64,000 bases of DNA, taken from positions 186,001 to 250,000 of the forward strand of contig NZ_JADHDA010000003.1 of assembly GCF_015277735.1 (NCBI RefSeq), read 5' to 3'. This document shows positions 52,639-63,547 of the stretch, in pieces. This DNA comes from Psychrobacter sp. NG254 (GTDB taxonomy: Bacteria; Pseudomonadota; Gammaproteobacteria; Pseudomonadales; Moraxellaceae). The translations under genes were made by a program, and so were the position numbers. Position 1 is the stretch's first letter. Every line of letters starts with the position of its first letter. Under the pieces are notes generated by a model that made no database searches, was not told the DNA's origin, and saw only the letters and a program-made list of their open reading frames with translations.

Positions 52639-53583
52639 CTAAGCGTCCGGCGTCGTACTTTTTATCCATGCTAACAGGTCTTGATAGACAACTTTATGGT
52701 CTGTTTCATGCAGTACTTCGTGACGCATATTGAGATAAAGCTGAATATCGACTCGGCTAAATTTTTGCTTGTTCAAGCGCGAGACAATCTTACGGATGCC
52801 TTTACCCATTTCACCAATCGGATCCTCCTCTCCGCTCACGAATAGCATCGGAAAATCTTTGGCAATCGTTGTCGCCCAGCCCTTGTTTAGCCCTGTATTC
52901 ATTAAGGTAAATAATGTCATAAAGCCATTGTTAGTAAAGTCAAAGCCCGTTTTTGGGTCGGCTTCATAAGCTGTAATATTGGCCGTGTTTTCACTTAACC
53001 AAGCAAACTGTGATGAGGAATCTCGGTCAGACAGCTGACTATTAAGCACTTTATTCATTACGTTGGAAAACACCGTATTTGGCTGTCTTGGCGCCACTTT
53101 TGCTAGCAACTTATTAATAGGCAATAAAACCTTGGTTAACGGGTTTGCATCCGCAGTACCCATCAATATCGCCCCTGAAAAATTACGCGCGTGATGCTTG
53201 AGCACATTGCGTACGATGAAAGAGCCCATAGAGTGTCCCAGCACAAAGTGCGGTACATTAGGATGACGCGATTTTAGGCTATCGGCCATGACGATCACGT
53301 CTTTTAGCAATGACTGTACAGGATGCTCATCTCCAAAAAACCCCAGATCAGCCTCAGTCTTTACGGTTTGCCCATGACCCAAATGATCATAAGTTGCCAC
53401 CGCGATGCCGTTGTCTGCCAAAAACTGTGCAAAGTCGCTATAGCGCCCACTATGCTCTGCCATGCCATGTACAATCAATAACGTGGCACTGATATCAACG
53501 CCTGCATCGCTTGGTTCAAAAAATTTATGGTGCAAGTAGTGAGTATTGTCGGAGGAGAGAATATGGTCGTTACTGGTACTCAT
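52639..53583 (-). CDS. alpha/beta hydrolase (monoacylglycerol lipase/lysophospholipase type)
   Basis: A 314-residue hydrolase: TLLIVHGMAEHSGRYSDFAQFL, VATYDHLGHGQTVKTEADLGFFGD, nucleophile elbow FVLGHSMGSFI (Ser in GHSMG), catalytic acid in LFVSGEEDPIGEMGKG and His in LNMRHEVLHETDH. These are serine hydrolase_4 features, as in PldB-like lysophospholipases. No signal peptide. It probably acts on monoacyl lipids. A GGAAT region precedes the ATG. Confidence 0.87.
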   Translation of the reverse strand: MSTSNDHILSSDNTHYLHHKFFEPSDAGVDISATLLIVHGMAEHSGRYSDFAQFLADNGIAVATYDHLGHGQTVKTEADLGFFGDEHPVQSLLKDVIVMADSLKSRHPNVPHFVLGHSMGSFIVRNVLKHHARNFSGAILMGTADANPLTKVLLPINKLLAKVAPRQPNTVFSNVMNKVLNSQLSDRDSSSQFAWLSENTANITAYEADPKTGFDFTNNGFMTLFTLMNTGLNKGWATTIAKDFPMLFVSGEEDPIGEMGKGIRKIVSRLNKQKFSRVDIQLYLNMRHEVLHETDHKVVYQDLLAWIKSTTPDA

Positions 53584-53801
53584 GTAGTATTCCTTGACGG
53601 GTTTTCAGTCGTTATAATTTTGATGAATAAAATCTGATGAATAAAAAGACAGTGTATCTGAAACATGCTAATAGCCACTATAAATGATATGTCAAAAAAT
53701 TAAATAATTATAGGGCTTCAAAGAGTCTATTTCATTGAACATGAGTGCATTTTACCTGCTTTTGCTAGGTTAGGTGACCCACACAGGCAGATTATTTTTA
53801 A

Positions 53802-54222
53802 TGGTATAGTCAGTCTTCTATAAAAGAGTTACCACGTTGACCTCGCTTGCAGTATCACTTGTACCTCTGAGCTTAGTTGCATTGAGTTGCATTGACGCTC
53901 CTTTAAACTGAATAATCTGTCTAAAAGATTAAGCGATTTTTAGACAGTTAATTTTAGATGGCTAGAGGTATGTAGATGCTAATAGACAACATGCCTGCTT
54001 TAATACCGTAAATAGTATCGAGACTGAGCAATTAAGTGGCATTGTTTGCGCTATTAATGCTGTCAGCGCACGTTTACAACAGAGCAATCTTAAAGCTGTT
54101 TCATTTGTATGGTATTTTTCTATAGAACACCAAAGCGCGGCTTTAATCGTTTAAGTGATTAAAGCCGCGCTTATCTATAAAAACCAGCACAGCTTCTTTT
54201 CTATATTAAACTGACTATACCA
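53802..54222. mobile_element. 421-base terminal-inverted-repeat element containing MITE-like copy B
   Basis: The ends are a perfect 13-bp inverted repeat: TGGTATAGTCAGT at 53802-53814 and its complement at 54210-54222, with partial similarity extending inward. The left 120 bases (53805-53925) resemble copy A at 28.7 kb, including the ...TGCAGTATCAC...GTACCTCTG... interior and a duplicated TTGCATTGA block. A 62-codon frame without a start (53966-54154) and a 16-bp hairpin (54133-54172) lie inside. It has no transposase and no clear target duplication. It sits directly upstream of the arsenosugar cluster. Confidence 0.6.
54133..54172 (+). terminator. 16-bp perfect hairpin inside the element
   Basis: AAGCGCGGCTTTAATC and its exact complement flank an 8-base loop. 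It is terminator-like but no annotated gene precedes it, so it may have been carried in by the element or be the end of a lost gene. Confidence 0.55.
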
Positions 54223-54243
54223 CTGACTGATACAAGATAACCT

Positions 54244-55416
54244 ATGAAACGTATGTCGAAAAAAACACTATTATTAGCAGGAGCAGGGCATGCTCATATC
54301 GGACTGCTGCGCCGACTCAGTGCTGATCGCTCAAAAAACAACGCATCGAATGCATTGATAGATACGGACATTCATCTAATTAGTGAGCAACCTCACACGC
54401 TTTATTCTGGAATGCTGCCTGGCTGGATGGCAGGGCATTATCAGCTTGATGAAATCAGTATCGACACAAAGTCGCTGTGCTTGCGAGCTGGCGTGCGTTT
54501 CATCCAGCAGTCAATTATCAATATAACGGCCGCATCGAATACTGTAGAGACAAGCGGCAATGAGCGTTTTGATTATGATGTGCTGTCCCTAAATACGGGT
54601 GCCGATACAGACTTACGCGGGTTAAGCCAAGCATATGATGACATGAGCAACGATACCCGTGATGACATGAGCAATGACGTCATTGCTATCCGGCCATTAT
54701 CGACATTTACTCTGCAATGGCAGCAGATTTTAGCTGATGCTCGCCAGTCTGAGCAGTATCGACTGGCTGTCGTTGGGGCAGGTGCTGCCGCTACTGAATT
54801 GGTGATGGCGGCACAGGTTGCCTTACAGAAAATCAATAACAATCATCAAGTGACACTGGTCTGCGGTGAGAATCTGCTATCAGGGTTTGTGCCGAGTTTT
54901 CGGCAGCGAGTGATCAAGCAGTTGCACCGCCACAGCATTACTATCATTGAGGCACGCGCGACAGCATATCGTGATGGTAAGTTGTCAACCTCTAATGACT
55001 CGTTTCCGGTGGATGCGGTTATCGCCGCCACTGGCGTGAGGGGCGCGGCATGGACAGTGTCAACGGATTTAGAAACGGTAGATAATGGGTTTGTCGCGGT
55101 TAATAGCCAGCAGCAGAGTGTCTCGCACCCCAATGTATTTGCAGTAGGGGATGTGGCAACACGAGTAGACCAATATGTCGCTCACTCAGGTGTCCATGCG
55201 GTGCATGGCGGCGCGATAGAAGCAGGTAATATACTGGCTTACCTCCAAAGTAAGATGCTGACAGAGTATCAACCAAAAACACATACGCTGTATTTATTAT
55301 CTTGCGGTGATAAGTATGCCATTGGCAGCTGGGGGAGTGTGAGCCTACAAGGGCGCTGGGTGTGGTATCTCAAACGTCAAATCGACAAGCGTTTTGTAAC
55401 ATCTTGCGCAGCATAA
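54244..55416 (+). CDS. FAD/NAD(P) oxidoreductase of the SelD N-terminal-type family
   Basis: A 390-residue two-dinucleotide-binding flavoprotein: LLLAGAGHAHIGLLRRLS (FAD loop, GAGHAH typical of the family found fused N-terminal to selenide-water dikinase), PHTLYSGMLPGWMAGHY, LSLNTGADTDLRG, LAVVGAGAAATELVMA (second Rossmann), and FAVGDVATRVDQYVAHSGVHAVHGG. Here it is not fused to SelD. A small duplication (DDMSND twice) sits at about residues 136-149. Its electron acceptor is unknown; quinone or an arsenical intermediate would be inference. First of the same-direction arsenosugar cluster. Confidence 0.85.
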   Translation: MKRMSKKTLLLAGAGHAHIGLLRRLSADRSKNNASNALIDTDIHLISEQPHTLYSGMLPGWMAGHYQLDEISIDTKSLCLRAGVRFIQQSIINITAASNTVETSGNERFDYDVLSLNTGADTDLRGLSQAYDDMSNDTRDDMSNDVIAIRPLSTFTLQWQQILADARQSEQYRLAVVGAGAAATELVMAAQVALQKINNNHQVTLVCGENLLSGFVPSFRQRVIKQLHRHSITIIEARATAYRDGKLSTSNDSFPVDAVIAATGVRGAAWTVSTDLETVDNGFVAVNSQQQSVSHPNVFAVGDVATRVDQYVAHSGVHAVHGGAIEAGNILAYLQSKMLTEYQPKTHTLYLLSCGDKYAIGSWGSVSLQGRWVWYLKRQIDKRFVTSCAA

Positions 55417-55659
55417 TGTTTAATTTTCATAATTATAAAATGCCCAATATTTTATTTGTCACTGTTCATTCACAATCAGGTAGTATTAGTTAGATAATAT
55501 GTAAAGTTAAGAATTTTGAAGTATGATACTTTAAGTGACCTAACAGTAAAAAAGCCATTGCTTACGTTGAAGCGTTTACATTGCAATAATGCTTATCTAC
55601 ACGCTGTCTCTACATTGTTATTTTTTTTAGCTGTACAACTAAAAGGATTTTGTACCACT

Positions 55660-56655
55660 ATGAAATCGACTATCGAACTACTTGAGCATACGGACTTTCC
55701 TGCTATTAAACGCCAACAATTGACCATATTGCAGGTCAATATGGGTTACTTGTGCAATATGTCGTGCGTACACTGTCATGTGGCGGCCAGTCCTTATCGA
55801 ACTGAAATGATGTCACGAGAGTTGGTTGAGCTGATACCTAAAGTGCTACAAGCGCAAAATATCGACACGCTTGACCTGACGGGTGGCGCACCTGAGATGC
55901 ATGAGGACTTTAAGTATTTAGTAAAAGCGGCTCGCGCACTTGGCGTCACAGTAATCGATCGCTGCAATCTGACCATTCTCATGGAGGAGGGTTATGAGGA
56001 CATGGCGCAGTTTTTGGCAGACAATCAAGTAGAGGTGGTGGCCTCTTTGCCATGCTATTCGCTAGAAAATGTAGACAAACAGCGTGGCAAAGGCGCGTTC
56101 GATGACAGTATATTGGGATTGCAAAAGCTCAATAGCTTGGGCTATGGTAAGCCTGACTCAAGCCTGACACTGAACTTGGTCTTCAACCCGCAAGGTGCCA
56201 CACTGCCGCCCAATCAGCAGCAGTTGGAAGCCGATTATAAGCGGGAGCTAAAAGAGCATTTCGACGTCGAGTTTAATCAACTGTTTGCACTGACTAATAT
56301 GCCGATTCAGCGTTTTGGTGCGGTGTTACTAGCCAAAGATCAATTCCATCCTTATATGACACTGCTCAAGGACAACTATGTCGCTGCCAATGTAGCTGGG
56401 GTTATGTGCCGATCAACCATTAGCGTCAATTGGTTGGGTGAGCTATTTGACTGTGATTTTAATCAGCAGCTTGAGATACCTGTACCCAATAAGTCGCGTC
56501 GACATCTAAGCGATCTGTTGACCCAGAACCCTTCTGGCGATGATATTGCTATTGCTGATCATTGTTATGGCTGCACCGCAGGACAGGGCAGTAGCTGCGG
56601 TGGCGCGTTAGAGGACGAGAAGGTAGAACACCTAGCAGAAGATACGGTTGTCTAA
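55660..56655 (+). CDS. arsS: arsenosugar biosynthesis radical SAM protein ArsS
   Basis: A 331-residue radical SAM protein. The [4Fe-4S] ligands are CNMSCVHC (Cys32, 36, 39); LDLTGGAPEMHEDFKYLV is the GGE-like SAM contact. The C-terminal Cys-rich motif ADHCYGCTAGQGSSCGGALE is the ArsS signature; in selenoprotein forms one of these Cys positions is Sec, but here the codon is TGC. ArsS adds the 5'-deoxyadenosyl group to dimethylarsinite, giving a 5'-dimethylarsinoyl adenosine precursor of arsenosugars (known for the family). The start at 55660 has AAAAGGA about 8 bases upstream; the 48-codon upstream frame is unsupported. Confidence 0.9.
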   Translation: MKSTIELLEHTDFPAIKRQQLTILQVNMGYLCNMSCVHCHVAASPYRTEMMSRELVELIPKVLQAQNIDTLDLTGGAPEMHEDFKYLVKAARALGVTVIDRCNLTILMEEGYEDMAQFLADNQVEVVASLPCYSLENVDKQRGKGAFDDSILGLQKLNSLGYGKPDSSLTLNLVFNPQGATLPPNQQQLEADYKRELKEHFDVEFNQLFALTNMPIQRFGAVLLAKDQFHPYMTLLKDNYVAANVAGVMCRSTISVNWLGELFDCDFNQQLEIPVPNKSRRHLSDLLTQNPSGDDIAIADHCYGCTAGQGSSCGGALEDEKVEHLAEDTVV

Positions 56656-56780
56656 TCATTTATCTCAAATTATCAGACATCCAACATTAGCGACAAATAA
56701 ACAGTTTTCGCCAGTAAGTACTATGAAAGCCAACAAAAACGAAATAGCCAAACATCATCGATTCAAATGGAGCCAATCTT

Positions 56781-57602
56781 ATGCCAGTGTCTAACTTTTC
56801 AGTCAAAAACTTAGTGGTACAGCCAGTACTCGCAACAGCAATTCTATTATCCAGTGTGGCCGCTTATGCTGATTTTAACCATCAAAGCTGGGACAGTTTG
56901 CTTAACAAGCACGTCACCATGACCAATGGCGGCAAAGCCTCAGTGGTCAACTATGCTGGCATGAAAGCAGATAGTAGCAAGCTCACAAGCTATTTGGACG
57001 CCACGAGCAAGGTGTCTCAGTCTGAATTTAATCGTTGGAACAAAAACGAGCAGTTGGCATTTTTAATCAATGTCTACAATGCGGGTACCGTTGATCTGGT
57101 ATTGACTAAATATCCTAATATCAAATCTATCAAAGACATTGGTGGGACATTCGGCTCACCATGGAAGCAAAAGTTTATTCCGTTATTGGGCAAGACTCGT
57201 TCATTAGATGAGATCGAGCACACCTTAATTCGTGGCTCTAAGCGTTACAACGATCCGCGCATTCACTTCGCCGTTAACTGCGCCAGTATTGGCTGCCCTG
57301 CATTACAAGATGATGCTTTCACTGGCAAAGGTTTGGACGGGCAATTAGAGCAAGCCACCTCGAAATTTTTGGCAGACAGTAGCCGTAATCGTCTAAAAGG
57401 TAATACGCTGAGTGTATCGCCAATCTTCAAATGGTACAAAGAAGACTTTGCGACCAATTGGCGTAGTACCAACGATTTAGAAGGATTTTTAGGTCGTTAC
57501 TCTTCATCATTGGGATTGAGCAAAGCCCAAACCGCTGACTTGAAGCAAGGCAAAATCAAAATCAGTTATACCGATTACAATTGGAACTTAAATAAAAAGT
57601 AA
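56781..57602 (+). CDS. DUF547 protein, secreted, arsenosugar-cluster associate
   Basis: A 273-residue DUF547 protein with a signal peptide (VQPVLATAILLSSVAAYA, cleaved near residue 31). Family markers: FLINVYNAGTVDLVL, FGSPWKQKFIPLLG, LDEIEHTLIR, and IHFAVNCASIGCPALQDD with two conserved Cys in CASIGC. DUF547 proteins occur next to ArsS-type genes in other bacteria; no reaction is known. The Cys pair may bind metal or thiol. Its export to the periplasm is unexpected for a step in a cytoplasmic pathway and suggests a transport or capture role. It has no strong own promoter evident. Confidence 0.83.
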   Translation: MPVSNFSVKNLVVQPVLATAILLSSVAAYADFNHQSWDSLLNKHVTMTNGGKASVVNYAGMKADSSKLTSYLDATSKVSQSEFNRWNKNEQLAFLINVYNAGTVDLVLTKYPNIKSIKDIGGTFGSPWKQKFIPLLGKTRSLDEIEHTLIRGSKRYNDPRIHFAVNCASIGCPALQDDAFTGKGLDGQLEQATSKFLADSSRNRLKGNTLSVSPIFKWYKEDFATNWRSTNDLEGFLGRYSSSLGLSKAQTADLKQGKIKISYTDYNWNLNKK

Positions 57603-57672
57603 ATCTAGAATTTGGTCGATACAGGTGCTGGTCTTTATCAAAGACAGGCGAAAATGATGATGACTCATCACA

Positions 57673-58392
57673 ATGGTGCATTTATTGAACATCTCTATCA
57701 TCATTCCATTGCTAAATGAAGCGGACAATATATCGCAGCTCATTGCTCATATTAACAGTCACCATCCACCACCGTTGCAGGTGATAATGGTGGATGGTGG
57801 CTCGACGGATGATTCAGTTGGTATTGCTAGACGTTTATTAAACGATTTATCAAGTGTGGCGCAGACTGCTATAGATTGGCATGTTATAGAATCCATAGCT
57901 GGGCGTGCACGGCAAATGAATGCAGGTGCCATGTTAGCAACAGGTGATGTTCTATTGTTTTTACATGCCGATACCCAGTTGCCAATTGATGCGATAGATA
58001 ACATTCAGCAGGCAATGATTCAGTATGACTGGGGACGTTTCGATGTGCGTCTGAATAGCCGTGATCCATTATTAAAAATCGTTGGGCTAATGATAAATCA
58101 GCGCTCACGTCTAGTAAGTATAGCCACTGGCGATCAAGCAATTTTTATCAAAAAATCTGTGTTCGGACAGCTTGGCGGTTATGCCGACCAGCCATTGATG
58201 GAAGATGTTGAGCTCTGTAAGCGGCTCAAGCGAATTGCCCGACCTGCTTGCTTAAAGAGTAAAGTAACAACATCAGCTCGGCGTTGGCAGCAACATGGTA
58301 CGTGGCGGACGATTTTCTTGATGTGGTATTTGCGCTTTGATTATTGGCGTGGCGTATCCCCTGAAGTATTAAGGCAGCGCTACTATCGTTGA
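57673..58392 (+). CDS. TIGR04283-type arsenosugar biosynthesis glycosyltransferase
   Basis: A 239-residue GT2-fold protein: ISIIIPLLNEADNISQLI, QVIMVDGGSTDDSVGIAR (DxD-like nucleotide-sugar loop), GRARQMNAGAMLATGDVLLFLHADTQLP, GDQAIFIKKSVF and QPLMEDVELCKRLKR, the signature of the family formerly called rSAM/selenodomain-associated transferase 2. It would attach a sugar or transfer a glycosyl unit to the arsenoribose. No ATG with a strong RBS; the chosen ATG is the first in frame. The gene's last codons and stop coincide with the left end of a MITE-like repeat. Confidence 0.83.
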   Translation: MVHLLNISIIIPLLNEADNISQLIAHINSHHPPPLQVIMVDGGSTDDSVGIARRLLNDLSSVAQTAIDWHVIESIAGRARQMNAGAMLATGDVLLFLHADTQLPIDAIDNIQQAMIQYDWGRFDVRLNSRDPLLKIVGLMINQRSRLVSIATGDQAIFIKKSVFGQLGGYADQPLMEDVELCKRLKRIARPACLKSKVTTSARRWQQHGTWRTIFLMWYLRFDYWRGVSPEVLRQRYYR

Positions 58393-58464
58393 ATCCAAAT
58401 GACTTCGATACTATACATTTGCACTCGGTTTTCTTGACTCTTGTTTAAACTGAATCAACTATAT
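58384..58464. mobile_element. MITE-like element, copy C (short)
   Basis: About 80 bases from TATCGTTGAATC to ACTGAATCAACTATA. The right end (GTTTAAACTGAATCAACTAT) matches copy A, and GCACTCGGTT matches GCGCTCGGTT in A. The left end is a weak inverted copy (TATCGTTGAATC against TATAGTTGATTC) that overlaps the glycosyltransferase stop codon. Confidence 0.45.
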
Positions 58465-58491
58465 AAACATTAATACCCCTTTAGATTAAGG

Positions 58492-59172
58492 ATGCGCCCT
58501 AGCATGACTGAGCATTCAAGTCCTCACACAACCCGTACGATAACTAATGCACAACACCCAGACACCTGTGTCATTTTGTTTGCCAAATATCCAGCGCGTG
58601 ATATGGCAAAAACTCGCTTGCAACCAGCCCTAGGCGTAGAGGGTGCTGCGATTATGGCAAGGCAATTGCTGTTGCATAGTGTCGAGCAAGCCGTCGCTAC
58701 GGATTTTGTCGTTGAGCTATGTGTCAGTCCAGCAGCGACAGAGCATTGCTGGCAAACCCTTAATTTGCCTGACTCACTGCAGTGGTCGACTCAAGCGGAT
58801 GGCGACTTGGGCACGCGTTTAATCACAGCAAGTCAAGATGCCCTGAAAAGATACCAAAGAGTCGTATTGATAGGGTCTGACTGTCCCAGTCTGACGGCAG
58901 AGCGTATTCAAACTGCGGTACAGCAGCTCGATAACTATGATGCGGTTATGATTCCAGCGACTGATGGTGGCTATGTGCTACTCGGGTTTAAGCAAGTTGA
59001 TGGCAGTCTGTTTTCGGATATTATTTGGAGTACAGCTAGCGTGGCCGCTGTGACCCAGCAGCGTGTGGCGGATTTGGGCTGGACATTGGCATTGTTAGCA
59101 CCGTTACATGACATTGATGAGCCTCAGGATTTAGAGCATCTACCATCAGATTGGCTTAAGTTTTATCAATAG
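58492..59172 (+). CDS. TIGR04282-type arsenosugar biosynthesis glycosyltransferase
   Basis: A 226-residue protein of the family formerly named rSAM/selenodomain-associated transferase 1 (CofC-like nucleotidyl/glycosyl fold): VILFAKYPARDMAKTRLQPALG, QADGDLGTRLITASQDAL, VVLIGSDCPSLTAERIQTAV, and IPATDGGYVLLGF. An ATG at 58492 (MRPSMTEH) or the internal Met (58504) could start it; neither has a clear RBS. Always found with the TIGR04283 partner and ArsS. Confidence 0.83.
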   Translation: MRPSMTEHSSPHTTRTITNAQHPDTCVILFAKYPARDMAKTRLQPALGVEGAAIMARQLLLHSVEQAVATDFVVELCVSPAATEHCWQTLNLPDSLQWSTQADGDLGTRLITASQDALKRYQRVVLIGSDCPSLTAERIQTAVQQLDNYDAVMIPATDGGYVLLGFKQVDGSLFSDIIWSTASVAAVTQQRVADLGWTLALLAPLHDIDEPQDLEHLPSDWLKFYQ

Positions 59173-59321
59173 TTATGACATACGAACGACTAGATGACAG
59201 TACGAATGATTAGGTGATAGTCAGCACATGCTTATCATGGATGTATTTATACCGTATCGCTTTATTTTTATGATGTTTACTCAGATTTTAACCAGGTTTT
59301 ACTCTCAATAAGGATATTGTT

Positions 59322-60365
59322 ATGCATGACGTTGTGCAAAATTACTATGGTAAAGAGTTACAAGGTACTGCCGACCTAAAAACCTCAGCGTGTTGTGATG
59401 TGAGCAATATGCCAGAGTGGCTCAAACCATTATTGGCCAATATTCACGATGAAGTATTGAGTCGCTATTATGGCTGCGGGTTAGTATGTCCTGCACTGCT
59501 TGAGGGTTGTAGGATTTTGGACTTGGGCAGTGGTTCAGGCCGTGATGTCTATGCATTGGCGCAATTGGTGGGCGAGAGTGGGCATGTGGTCGGTGTCGAT
59601 ATGACCGATGAGCAGCTGGCCGTAGCCAAAGAGCATCAGCAATATCACATCGATAAGTTTGGTTATGACAATGTGACTTTTTTGCATGGCTATATCGAAA
59701 AGCTAGATGAGCTGGATCTTGAAGATGGCAGTTTTGATATTATTGTCTCAAACTGCGTCATCAATCTCTCACCTGACAAAGCAGCAGTCATGGCCAGTGT
59801 GCAGCGTTTGCTTAAGCCTGGTGGCGAGTTTTATTTTTCTGATGTGTATGCTGATCGCCGTATTCCGCAACATCTGATAGATGATCCGGTCCTGTATGGC
59901 GAGTGCTTGAGTGGCGCATTGTACTGGAAAGATTTTACCCGTTTGTCACGAGATGCAGGGTTTTTAGACGTACGTTTGGTTGAGGATCGTCCGCTTGAGA
60001 TTACTGATCCTGCTTTGGCGGCAAAAATTGGCGATATCCAGTTTTTCTCTGCCACTTATCGTTTGTTTAAGATTGCAGCGCTCGAAGATGCTTGCGAAGA
60101 TCATGGTCAAGCGGTTATATACAAAGGCTCTATTGCACAGTCACCGCATCGTTTTGATCTCGATAAGCATCATGCTATTGAGGCTGGTCGAGTATTTCCA
60201 GTCTGTGGCAACACGTTTAGGATGCTAAAAGAATCTCGCTTTGCACCACATTTTGAGTTCATCGGTGATGACAGTCGTCACTATGGTATTTTTGCCGGCT
60301 GCGGTGAGCTGATGCCATTTAACAAGTCTGTGATACCAACCTCTGGATTAGGCGGTTGTTGTTAA
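59322..60365 (+). CDS. arsM: arsenite S-adenosylmethionine methyltransferase ArsM
   Basis: A 347-residue methyltransferase. SAM motif RILDLGSGSGRDVYALA (about 65-80) and VVGVDMTDEQL. The three Cys expected of ArsM are in place: YYGCGLVCP (Cys53), IVSNCVINLSPDK (Cys146) and YGECLSGALYW (Cys196). A C-terminal domain carries FPVCGNTFRML and ends GLGGCC. It methylates As(III) to mono-, di- and trimethyl forms. An AAGGA site precedes the ATG. ArsM is the first chemical step of arsenosugar synthesis although its gene is last in this run; a terminator follows. Confidence 0.92.
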   Translation: MHDVVQNYYGKELQGTADLKTSACCDVSNMPEWLKPLLANIHDEVLSRYYGCGLVCPALLEGCRILDLGSGSGRDVYALAQLVGESGHVVGVDMTDEQLAVAKEHQQYHIDKFGYDNVTFLHGYIEKLDELDLEDGSFDIIVSNCVINLSPDKAAVMASVQRLLKPGGEFYFSDVYADRRIPQHLIDDPVLYGECLSGALYWKDFTRLSRDAGFLDVRLVEDRPLEITDPALAAKIGDIQFFSATYRLFKIAALEDACEDHGQAVIYKGSIAQSPHRFDLDKHHAIEAGRVFPVCGNTFRMLKESRFAPHFEFIGDDSRHYGIFAGCGELMPFNKSVIPTSGLGGCC

Positions 60366-60416
60366 AACTAGAGGTAGATAATGGGTTTGCATTCAAGATA
60401 TAGAGATTAAAATCAG

Positions 60417-60449
60417 AAAAGGCCATTAATTCACTTAATGGCCTTTTTT
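60417..60449. terminator. terminator after arsM
   Basis: AAAAGGCCATTAA pairs exactly with TTAATGGCCTTTT and TTTTTT follows. It can also end the convergent phosphorylase gene. Confidence 0.88.
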
Positions 60450-60538
60450 ATGAGTCATTCGTTGTTGATGTTTGTATATTGGCAGACGCTATAGAAATAG
60501 CATTTTACTGTTTAATAGATTGATTTTCGGTTAAATAC

Positions 60539-61441
60539 TCATTTATCGACATGTTTAGGAAGTAATGCCGCCAATCGAGTTTTGGTTGCGTCATCCATCA
60601 TATCTACCGATGTCACCAGTGCCTGAGCAAGCGCATCATGTGCAATTGAGTCAGGTGATTCAGCGGCAATCAAAGCGACCGCTTCCTTAATCACTTTTTG
60701 AGCATTGTCTGCATTTTTCATAAGATTTTTTATCGCATAGTCTGCACTGACGGCTTCTTCAGTCGGATGCCAACAATCAAAATCTGTCACCAGTGCTAAG
60801 GTCGCATAGGCAATACTGGCTTCACGTGCCAATTTGGCTTCTGGCATATTGGTCATACCGATGATGTCTGCCTGCATCTGACGATACCACTGGGACTCTG
60901 CACGGGTTGAGAACTGTGGCCCTTCAATACAGACATAGGTCGCTTTTGGGTGACTGGTGCCTTCTGCAATATCTGCATTGTCATAGGCACGCGTCAAGAT
61001 TTCTGCGAGGGCAGGACAAAGCGGGTCGGCCATTGATACATGAGCGACTGCGCCCGCGCCAAAGAAAGTACTCACTCGCTGCTTGGTCATATCAATCATT
61101 TGATCTGGAATGACCATATCTAGTGGCTTAAGCGATTCTCGTAGAGAGCCTACTGCTGACACGGACACGATGTAGCGCACCCCAAGCGTTTTTAACGCAT
61201 AAATATTGGCACGATAAGGCACTTCAGACGGCGTCAGTCTATGACCTTGACCATGCCGCGTCAAAAAAGCAACAGTCACACCTGCTAACTCACCAAGGAC
61301 AATATCATCAGAGGGGCTGCCAAAGGGCGTGTCAATAGTAATATGACGCTTGTTGATGAGCGCATCCATTTGATACAACCCGCTGCCGCCAATGATGGCG
61401 ATATCCGCAGAGAGTGATGCTTGTTTTGTAGGGGTTGTCAT
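60539..61441 (-). CDS. mtnP: S-methyl-5'-thioadenosine phosphorylase
   Basis: A 300-residue nucleoside phosphorylase: IAIIGGSGLYQMDAL, phosphate-binding FLTRHGQGHRLTPSEVPYRANIYALK, VSAVGSLRESLKPLDMVIPDQMIDMT, YVCIEGPQFSTRAES, IIGMTNMPEAKLARE and the adenine-selecting TDFDCWH (two Asp). The Asp pair marks a 6-aminopurine (MTAP) rather than inosine-type enzyme. It normally releases adenine from 5'-methylthioadenosine. It converges with the arsenosugar genes; its C-terminal part is otherwise ordinary. Confidence 0.9.
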   Translation of the reverse strand: MTTPTKQASLSADIAIIGGSGLYQMDALINKRHITIDTPFGSPSDDIVLGELAGVTVAFLTRHGQGHRLTPSEVPYRANIYALKTLGVRYIVSVSAVGSLRESLKPLDMVIPDQMIDMTKQRVSTFFGAGAVAHVSMADPLCPALAEILTRAYDNADIAEGTSHPKATYVCIEGPQFSTRAESQWYRQMQADIIGMTNMPEAKLAREASIAYATLALVTDFDCWHPTEEAVSADYAIKNLMKNADNAQKVIKEAVALIAAESPDSIAHDALAQALVTSVDMMDDATKTRLAALLPKHVDK

Positions 61442-61974
61442 GAGTGTTATCCAATTTTAGTCGTCAGAGACAACCTTGCTAATATAGAAGAACTTTTTTT
61501 TATTGAAGCTGATAAAGGCATAAAGAAAATATCTTAAAATCATACCTCAGACAAAATATAGCAGAAGTTGAGTGATAATAGAAAGCAATCAAAAATAAGT
61601 ATTTGGTCAGGTTTCATACATTATCTATAACGATATTTTGTCAAAGTAAAAATAGACGCTGCATCAAACATGCAAGATGTGTAATAGATGTTTGTTGTGA
61701 TAAAGGTTTACAACCCCTTCAAACTCTGCTTAAATAATTAATAATCGAAACTAAGTTCCACTTGGCGGAACTCTATATATATTCAATTATCAGTAATAAA
61801 ACGTTGGTATGTCCTTAAACGGCTTTGGATATAAGGTATTGAAAGTAAAAGAGAAACCAGTCTACGGTTTATTTTTTGCAAAAATTGCTATATTATTACT
61901 CGTCTGTAACGTATTTATGTATAAATACGAATATTATTAAATGTATTAAATCGATTACTTCAAGGATGAATTCA
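61442..61974. promoter_or_regulatory. 533-base divergent region between mtnP and the TAXI gene
   Basis: AT-rich, with no ORF or hairpin recognised. It must contain promoters for both divergent genes. The AAGGA ribosome-binding site of the binding-protein gene lies at its end. Confidence 0.35.
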
Positions 61975-63009
61975 ATGATCAGTTCTTTAAAATCCCCATT
62001 ACTTTTGTCAGCGATGCTGAGTGTCACACTAGGCCTTACCGCATGCTCGTCACCAAGCTCAGAGAGTAGCGATGCCGCTGCTACAGATAGTACTGCAACG
62101 GATAGCGCAGCGACTGACACTGCTGCTGATAAGCTAGATACCAAATTTCTTACCATCGCGACCGGCGGTGCATCAGGCCCTTACAACATCATCGGTACGT
62201 CATTGTCTGAAGTCTATGTCAAAACCTTTGGGGTTAACTCAAAGACGCAAACCACGGGTGCTTCAGTTGAAAACGTCAATCTATTGACCCAAGGCAAAGT
62301 GGACATGGTATTGGCGCTTAGTGACGTGGTCACAGATGCTGTTGAAGGCAAAAACAACTTTGAGAAGCCAATCACTAACATTCAACAGATTGCTGTTCTG
62401 TACCCTAATGTCGTGCAAATCGTAACGACGAAAAAATCTGGCATCAAAAATATTGAAGATTTAAAAGGCAAGCGTATTGCTGTTGGTGATCAAGGCTCTG
62501 GAACAGAGGTAAATGCTCGTACCTTGCTAGAAGGGTTCGGCATTACATATGATGATGTGACAGTCGATTACCTAGGCTTTGCAGAAGCGGCAGATGGCAT
62601 GAAAGCGGGTAAAATTGAAGCAGCATTCTTTAGTAGTGGCCTACCAAATTCATCTTTGATGGAGTTAGAGCAAGGCTTAGATTTACAGATTGTCACGATC
62701 AACCAAGACAAGCTAAAAGAAATCATCGCGACCAAGCCTTATTTCAAAACTTTTGAGATTCCTGTTGGCACCTATGGTAACGAAGCTGCTATTCCAACTG
62801 CTGCAATCATGAATGCGCTATTGGTCAGCTCTGACTTGTCTGAAGCTGATGGTTACAAATTAACCAAAGCGTTATTTGATAATTTAGAGGGTCTAAAAAC
62901 CGCTCACCAAGCAGCCAACGACATCAGCCTAGCAACCGCTCGTGAAGGCATGGTCGCTCCAATCCATCCTGGTGCTAAAAAATACTATGACGAACAAGCA
63001 GCCAAGTAA
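61975..63009 (+). CDS. TAXI-family TRAP transporter solute-binding lipoprotein
   Basis: A 344-residue lipoprotein: signal ISSLKSPLLLSAMLSVTLGL then lipobox LTAC; a Ser/Asp/Ala/Thr linker (DAAATDSTATDSAATDTAAD); then the TAXI domain beginning FLTIATGGASGPYNIIGTSLSEV, with AVLYPNVVQIVT, GKRIAVGDQGSGTEVNARTLL and AAFFSSGLPNSSLMEL. It binds a substrate (often glutamate or another dicarboxylate-type anion; unknown here) for the downstream permease. The start at 61975 gives an 8-base SD spacing (AAGGA); 61966 is an alternative. Its last 23 bases overlap the DUF1850 gene. Confidence 0.88.
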   Translation: MISSLKSPLLLSAMLSVTLGLTACSSPSSESSDAAATDSTATDSAATDTAADKLDTKFLTIATGGASGPYNIIGTSLSEVYVKTFGVNSKTQTTGASVENVNLLTQGKVDMVLALSDVVTDAVEGKNNFEKPITNIQQIAVLYPNVVQIVTTKKSGIKNIEDLKGKRIAVGDQGSGTEVNARTLLEGFGITYDDVTVDYLGFAEAADGMKAGKIEAAFFSSGLPNSSLMELEQGLDLQIVTINQDKLKEIIATKPYFKTFEIPVGTYGNEAAIPTAAIMNALLVSSDLSEADGYKLTKALFDNLEGLKTAHQAANDISLATAREGMVAPIHPGAKKYYDEQAAK

Positions 63010-63547
63010 TTCATTAGGGCTAACAGCTGGCGCGGCATTGATTGCCGCGCTGGTTTTTTTTACGTTATGGATGGGCACCGCTTATCAATCTGTTGTCGAA
63101 GTACGAGTTGTGGGTTTAGAAGGAGACGATAAGGTATGCTACTTTGTCGAACCTGACTTTCAACTGCGCTGGATACATTCTGTAGAAAAGCAGTGGTGGG
63201 AGGAGCAGTACCAGCGTATTGACGAAAGCGGTACGGAAAAAGGTACATTGCTACTGACCACCACGTATTTTGAAGCATTTGGTGCAGGTACTCCTTCTAC
63301 CGAAACGCTTGCCCCTATACAAAAGCCTGGCTATTTGGGCTATCAAATTAACGAAAAATTGCCAAATCTCAACTGGGTTGTCTCTCGACTGACCAAAGGT
63401 GAGATTGATTATGGCAACCATCGTTTTTTGATTCACCAGTGGGTGCCAGACTATTCTGAAGTAATAATCATGCCGAAAATGTATGGTTTCATTGATAGAT
63501 TTAACAAGGACTTTTGTCATGACCTCCCAAGTGACGGATCACGGTAG
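62987..63547 (+). CDS. DUF1850 TRAP-associated protein
   Basis: A 186-residue protein with an N-terminal hydrophobic anchor (AGAALIAALVFFTLWMG) and a DUF1850 domain: FQLRWIHSVEKQWWEEQYQ, TTTYFEAFGAGTPS. DUF1850 proteins sit between TAXI binding proteins and fused permeases and are thought to be periplasmic accessory parts. It overlaps the gene on each side (23 and 29 bases), a sign of translational coupling. The start at 62987 is the first suitable ATG after the upstream stop context. Confidence 0.82.
   Translation: MTNKQPSNSLGLTAGAALIAALVFFTLWMGTAYQSVVEVRVVGLEGDDKVCYFVEPDFQLRWIHSVEKQWWEEQYQRIDESGTEKGTLLLTTTYFEAFGAGTPSTETLAPIQKPGYLGYQINEKLPNLNWVVSRLTKGEIDYGNHRFLIHQWVPDYSEVIIMPKMYGFIDRFNKDFCHDLPSDGSR

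Follow-up and report, generated by a model that had tools for sequence, protein, structure and literature searches.

An MTAP-family phosphorylase gene beside an arsenosugar-type gene cluster in Psychrobacter sp. NG254

A window of DNA from the cold-loving bacterium Psychrobacter sp. NG254 (64,000 nucleotides; contig NZ_JADHDA010000003.1, positions 186,001 to 250,000) carries an ArsM/ArsS arsenosugar-type gene cluster at window positions 54244 to 60365 and, convergent with it, a gene for an MTAP-family phosphorylase (Table 1). The cluster is a Moraxellaceae-type variant of an already known kind of arsenosugar cluster, and, judging from sequence, we lean slightly toward counting its relevant genes as seven, MTAP included, rather than six. 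An earlier sequence-only reading of this DNA, which had described a complete six-gene cluster, was right in outline, wrong on constant partners, and ended just before the most informative gene, MTAP. All six genes were found in the open reading frame list on the + strand, in the families that had been named, and the arsenosugar-type assignment was borne out, as the ArsS, TIGR04282, and TIGR04283 proteins all score above the NCBIfam arsenosugar cut-offs. The completeness of the cluster is doubtful, since the segment leaves out the MTAP gene, and the suggestion that the cluster had not been described was too strong, since ArsS, TIGR04282, and TIGR04283 already bear arsenosugar names in NCBIfam.

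The MTAP protein scored 324 bits against TIGR01694 (cut-off, 274.85) and is the only match to PF01048 in its own genome. Among 61 Moraxellaceae genomes, MTAP was present in 10 and ArsS in 13, and all 10 MTAP genomes carried ArsS, such that MTAP was found in 10/13 ArsS-positive versus 0/48 ArsS-negative genomes (P = 3.2e-9, Fisher test, not corrected for relatedness). Measured between their low ends, the ArsS and MTAP matches were 1.2 to 5.0 kb apart in nine of these genomes and 9.6 kb apart in the tenth. Three genera (g1, g2, and g157) had ArsS and MTAP jointly present or jointly absent in every sampled genome, and a fourth (g3) had ArsS without MTAP in two genomes. The MTAP gene lies convergent and downstream in Psychrobacter, whereas in Massilia-type loci it immediately precedes ArsS on the same strand; in a tree, the linked gammaproteobacterial MTAPs and the Burkholderiales-linked MTAPs formed two clades.

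To place these genes in context, two sets of ArsS loci were used. The close set comprised the best 80 of 267 ArsS loci with their flanks (42 Psychrobacter and 38 other) and favors close relatives of the window ArsS. The phylum set was drawn from a 249-genome sample in which 77 genomes (own included) passed the ArsS cut-off, 76 loci being fetched. An MTAP copy was considered linked if the fetched ArsS locus contained it or, for 10 copies (L195 to L204), if it lay in the Moraxellaceae genomes.

In human MTAP, the methylthio-ribose has hydrophobic contacts with V233 and V236, as described in a passage of PMC5738077, and when aligned to the human protein, the window MTAP has Ala at both positions. 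This pair was found in 57/57 linked gammaproteobacterial copies, 0/49 unlinked copies (5 of which are gapped at 233 and 236), and 0/15 Burkholderiales-linked copies, all 15 of which have Phe at 237. The own gene is counted twice among the 57 linked copies, the Psychrobacter ones include near-identical sequences, and three of the 57 (L059, L185, and L200) look identical. The Ala pair fits a bulkier 5' group, and would be support rather than proof because it is clade specific and A233 alone occurs in other MTAPs.

Several observations weigh against a dedicated role for MTAP. Three of the 13 ArsS-positive Moraxellaceae (G289, G291, and G301) lack it, G291 being 86% complete. The linked gammaproteobacterial copies form one clade, so that common ancestry could account for the Ala pair, which is missing from every Burkholderiales-linked copy; A233 alone occurs in 3/15 Burkholderiales-linked and 1/49 unlinked copies and, as stated in part of PMC5738077, in the MTAPs of Leishmania and Trypanosoma. 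MTAP lies near ArsS in only 2/76 phylum loci, and among the class-sample matches listed, the own genome is by eye the only one with MTAP and ArsS within 10 kb. MTAP-family matches are also common, occurring in 141/249 phylum-sample genomes and in 266/370 genomes of a class sample, in which ArsS was found in 193/370. Two wider associations were set aside: the class-wide one is not informative at these frequencies, and the phylum-wide one (MTAP in 64/77 ArsS-positive versus 77/172 ArsS-negative genomes; P = 8e-9) is lineage confounded, given the 2/76 adjacent loci. In the wider phylum, a general MTAP copy could perform the step, or another enzyme does.

The route that we favor, by a small degree, runs from ArsM through ArsS and MTAP phosphorolysis to the TIGR04282 and TIGR04283 proteins, every step after ArsS being inferred. 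ArsM would make dimethylarsenic, and ArsS would add a 5'-deoxyadenosyl group to it, as reported for homologues of both, to give what we take to be 5'-dimethylarsinoyl-5'-deoxyadenosine. MTAP would then swap adenine for phosphate, yielding 5-dimethylarsinoyl-5-deoxyribose 1-phosphate; it is a candidate for adenine release because it is linked to ArsS in relatives and has altered 5' pocket residues. The TIGR04282 protein, which is related to CofC-type nucleotidylyltransferases, may activate the sugar phosphate, and the TIGR04283 protein (a GT2-family glycosyltransferase) may transfer the activated sugar to glycerol or glycerol phosphate. As weak guesses, the flavoprotein might supply reducing equivalents, e.g., to reduce As(V) to As(III), while the DUF547 protein might act in the periplasm after export.

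The individual proteins fit this route to different degrees. ArsS scored 466 bits against TIGR04167 (cut-off, 300). Its open reading frame was listed from TTG 55516; the start is most likely ATG 55660, giving 331 amino acids (aa), because AAAGGA precedes it (by eye) and homologues align from there. With this start, the intergenic gaps in the cluster are 70 to 243 bp. The CX3CX2C motif and the C-terminal cysteines expected of an active ArsS are present, and of its ten cysteines, nine (C32, C36, C39, C132, C250, C265, C302, C305, and C313) are each shared by 155 to all 157 of the aligned sequences and one (C102) by 130/157. The TIGR04283 protein scored 266 bits (cut-off, 182) and the TIGR04282 protein 197 bits (cut-off, 134). 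The TIGR04282 profile matched 3cgx (a putative nucleotide-diphospho-sugar transferase) strongly, with an E value of 8e-45, and two guanylyltransferases, 6bwg and 7p97, weakly (1e-4 to 5e-4). The window ArsM has a methyltransferase domain and the expected cysteines, seen by eye as ACC, YYGCG, NCV, and ECL motifs in the translation. It scored under the cut-offs of both NF008823 (arsenite methyltransferase; 177 versus 263 bits) and NF038099 (arsenosugar ArsM; 105 versus 400 bits), and by these profile scores it is ArsM-like and outside the NCBI subfamily NF038099.

The flavoprotein had been called a nonfused SelD-type protein. It is indeed a stand-alone TIGR03169-like protein, and the profile scan found no SelD domain in it, but "SelD-type" holds in name only: it scored 286 bits against TIGR03169 (Nterm_to_SelD), under the cut-off of 310, and NADH dehydrogenase-like proteins and FSP1 are among the solved structures closest to its alignment. 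Four relatives that were scanned, two fused to SelD and two not, scored 324 to 501 bits against this model. The flavoprotein alignment contains no invariant cysteine. SelD-fused flavoproteins were seen near ArsS in two loci (L061, 15526 to 17928; L075, 7471 to 9930). The DUF547 protein scored 92 bits against PF04784 (gathering score, 27), and its description as secreted agrees with a signal-like N terminus seen by eye. H162, C167, and C172 are invariant in 20 sequences. Its structure model (predicted local distance difference test [pLDDT] score, 87) gave no Foldseek match at E ≤ 0.001, its sequence no PDB match at E ≤ 5, and the best VIA-align Z score was 4.6 among 414 chains aligned; we assign it no reaction or catalytic class, and it may still have a known fold.

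The neighborhood survey, a check that the sequence-only reading had itself named as able to refute it, did not support a constant partnership of flavoprotein and DUF547 with ArsS. Locus-built profiles were searched over the locus open reading frames, and companions were counted within 10 kb of ArsS, with matches below 100 bits (600 for the VTT/reductase fusion described below) or farther away being dropped, for example, two matches of 84 bits each, one to a fragmentary flavoprotein in L084 and the other to an ArsM stub that sits at a contig end in L080. Contig ends truncate some of the loci, and those with 8 kb on both sides (36 Psychrobacter, 24 other, and 43 phylum loci) give a similar picture. 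In Psychrobacter, other close-set, and phylum loci, respectively, TIGR04283 was near ArsS in 42/42, 26/38, and 7/76; TIGR04282 in 42/42, 25/38, and 8/76; MTAP in 41/42, 17/38, and 2/76; DUF547 in 38/42, 13/38, and 2/76; ArsM in 26/42, 8/38, and 24/76; and the flavoprotein in 24/42, 16/38, and 1/76. None of the seven companion families (these six and the VTT/reductase fusion) was present in 44/76 phylum loci. The two glycosyltransferase-family genes are thus the steadiest ArsS companions in the gammaproteobacterial and Burkholderiales clusters surveyed, and their presence with ArsS in every Psychrobacter locus is an association beyond chance. DUF547 is close to constant within Psychrobacter but not beyond, and the partnership of both DUF547 and the flavoprotein is lineage restricted; the locus counts rule out either as a constant ArsS partner.

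Many of the surveyed clusters have no local arsM. ArsM was not found genome-wide in any of 15 tested Psychrobacter genomes without an ArsS-adjacent arsM, in which the best matches had E values of 2.6e-9 or weaker and were partial methyltransferase-core matches; the 16th such locus (L025), cut by a contig end, was left out. One of these genomes (L040) is a complete chromosome, and its locus has broken reading frames. Among 27 of the 30 non-Psychrobacter loci without a local arsM (L068, L074, and L080 were left out; L050 served as the positive control), ArsM was found elsewhere in 7 genomes (one match, in L082, was 40% identical and counted as present), as a 55-residue fragment counted apart in one (L081), and not at all in 19. 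Many arsM-less assemblies are drafts or metagenome bins. The median ratio of nonsynonymous to synonymous substitution rates (dN/dS) for ArsS was 0.046 in arsM-less versus 0.025 in arsM-plus pairs, and the medians for DUF547, both glycosyltransferase-family proteins, and MTAP were 0.068 to 0.153 versus 0.060 to 0.141. These values, from 6 of 15 arsM-less and 6 of 26 arsM-plus Psychrobacter loci and only from pairs with measurable dS, are rough because dS is near saturation. Unexpectedly, the cluster genes compared in the sampled arsM-less loci are under purifying selection and not decaying.

How the MTAP gene and the arsM-less clusters are interpreted depends on the alternatives. MTAP might serve salvage only, clearing methylthioadenosine or 5'-deoxyadenosine and being kept by ArsS-positive strains to remove by-products; the arsenical nucleoside would then be split by something else or stay uncleaved. 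That MTAP is the sole PF01048 match in the genome counts for this explanation and against a dedicated role, as it may simply recycle these nucleosides; the protein also passes the TIGR01694 cut-off, and MTAP-family genes are common in both wider samples. However, MTAP is absent from all 48 ArsS-negative Moraxellaceae sampled, which by inference need salvage equally, and the 5' pocket residues are altered in all linked gammaproteobacterial copies. We regard salvage alone as rather unlikely and retain phosphorolysis of the arsenical nucleoside as the preferred role for MTAP.

A further explanation concerns the arsM-less relatives and is compatible with the MTAP route proposed for the window, which itself carries arsM: these clusters may use dimethylarsenic from other organisms, arsM being an optional module and some clusters adding a PhnDE(C)-like importer. 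We consider this possible, if short of even. No ArsM was detected in 15/15 Psychrobacter and 19/27 other tested genomes, yet ArsS has the low dN/dS given above in six arsM-less loci. PhnD/PhnE-like transporter genes occur at 10/38 non-Psychrobacter loci, none with a local arsM, and 8 of the 9 genomes tested gave no ArsM. However, the exclusion of arsM by PhnD at the locus is not significant (P = 0.08), no Psychrobacter locus contains these transporter genes, some of the loci and assemblies are incomplete, and a distant methyltransferase could serve, generic methyltransferases having been proposed as possible ArsM in a passage of PMC10138600. Uptake of methylated arsenic would be the simplest reading of the arsM-less clusters. 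The broader proposal, that many bacteria run the ArsS pathway without an arsenite methyltransferase by importing methylated arsenic, adenosylating it, and releasing the sugar via dedicated MTAP-family phosphorolysis, is somewhat more doubtful; if true, arsenosugar making would be not only a means of self-detoxification but also a scavenging trade. Clusters without detected ArsM also question the assumption that arsenosugar makers begin from inorganic arsenic. Alternatively, arsM-less ArsS may have another substrate (inorganic arsenite or an element such as selenium), such that the cluster would not always be an arsenosugar pathway. The failure to find ArsM genome-wide where ArsS cysteines are conserved and the SelD-fused flavoproteins in L061 and L075 are consistent with this idea. 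We consider it very unlikely, however, as identity to the window proteins across the 15 arsM-less Psychrobacter loci is 86 to 90% for ArsS and 80 to 83% for MTAP (59 to 70% for the glycosyltransferase-family proteins), which does not suggest a change of substrate, and the window flavoprotein has no SelD domain.

Table 1. Features of the cluster and its immediate surroundings (window positions)
Feature	Position	Strand	Basis
Stand-alone FAD/NAD(P)H oxidoreductase, TIGR03169-like, Pyr_redox_2, no SelD fusion	54244..55416	+	profile matches
ArsS, radical SAM + DUF3641	55660..56655	+	profile matches, homologue alignment
DUF547 protein	56781..57602	+	PF04784; signal-like N terminus by eye
TIGR04283 GT2-family glycosyltransferase	57673..58392	+	profile match
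Dispersed repeat copy between the two glycosyltransferase-family genes	58411..58466	+	DNA search of genome
TIGR04282/DUF2064, CofC-related, proposed nucleotidylyltransferase	58492..59172	+	profile matches
ArsM-like arsenite methyltransferase	59322..60365	+	methyltransferase domain, cysteine motifs
Terminator-like hairpin between convergent arsM and MTAP	60417..60447	.	listed on - strand; T-runs on both strands by eye
MTAP-family phosphorylase, proposed dimethylarsinoyl-deoxyadenosine phosphorylase	60539..61441	-	TIGR01694, PF01048

A DNA search of the own genome found no second copy of the cluster. The dispersed repeat is ~50 to 56 bp long and has 24 genome matches, counting its own copy; none of 7 other copies inspected overlaps an open reading frame of ≥100 aa, and the repeat is not thought to be part of the pathway. 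The single Rfam match at E ≤ 0.1 over positions 53000 to 62000 scored far under the gathering score and was taken as chance. Acr3 had no match in the own genome; ArsB, ArsC, and ArsR were not searched for. Beyond MTAP, positions 61876 to 63547 likely encode a TRAP substrate-binding protein of the TAXI type along with a small protein, both identified by eye, homologues of which were found in 35 fetched Psychrobacter loci.

Other gene families were observed around ArsS elsewhere. A VTT-domain protein fused to a MerA/lipoamide-dehydrogenase-like reductase lies 3' of ArsS in many clusters (L041, L043, L050, L053, and others; near ArsS in 2/42 Psychrobacter, 22/38 other, and 8/76 phylum loci) and not in the window. 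A PF07969 amidohydrolase (e.g., L029, 5489 to 7279) occurs in 14/42 Psychrobacter loci, 12 of them without a local arsM; a DUF3047 protein (L132, L059, L060, and others) in 9/38 non-Psychrobacter and 4/76 phylum loci; and, in a single Psychrobacter cluster, a HAD-family phosphatase-like gene (PF12710; L041, 14101 to 14685) is inserted between those for DUF547 and TIGR04283. Two loci, L062 (Hydrogenophaga) and L075 (Limnohabitans), have MTAP directly 3' of a protein whose structure model (pLDDT, 76) matches metallophosphoesterases (Foldseek E value, 1.8e-10; TMq, 0.50), an arrangement that we count in favor of the MTAP route. This putative metallophosphoesterase-like family is found at 10/38 non-Psychrobacter loci, and the three members scanned (L062, 13673 to 14695; L075, 12351 to 13361; L126, 11777 to 12748) have no Pfam match. 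Plasmid records carrying ArsS at E ≤ 1e-60 numbered 51, of which 46 are from Burkholderia, and a cluster with convergent MTAP lies on the 333-kb Acinetobacter portensis plasmid pJNE5-X3_NDM-1 (L050, 10001 to 18316).

Arsenic in seaweed is held mainly as arsenosugars, according to part of PMC5478658. In Synechocystis, ArsS works with ArsM in the first arsenosugar steps, as cited in passages of PMC8552651 and PMC12159101, and the window shares these first steps. This comparison covers the enzymes; in the window, ArsM and ArsS are clustered with two glycosyltransferase-family genes, a flavoprotein, DUF547, and MTAP. The literature passages on the pathway assign no enzymes after ArsS, and among the papers listed in our literature search, none tied MTAP or DUF547 to arsenosugars, although we do not claim absence from print. 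The window proteins pass the cut-offs of both the TIGR04282 and TIGR04283 arsenosugar families; NCBIfam names TIGR04282 a glycosyltransferase, whereas the solved relatives found by its profile include guanylyltransferases. The arsinothricin cluster arsQML likewise pairs ArsM and a radical SAM enzyme that creates a C-As bond but differs in its radical SAM protein (ArsL), product, and neighbors, as described in part of PMC8552651. The nearest solved relative of the window MTAP is RSFP (PDB 4GLF/4GLJ), an MTAP of Antarctic soil metagenomic origin that aligns over 285 residues with a score of 541 bits and, according to passages of PMC3561333, was studied for rhodamine B binding, its enzyme activity being left for later work. 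RSFP carries the same Ala pair as the window MTAP, and a candidate with a crystallized close relative makes the proposed adenine-release step testable in one assay.

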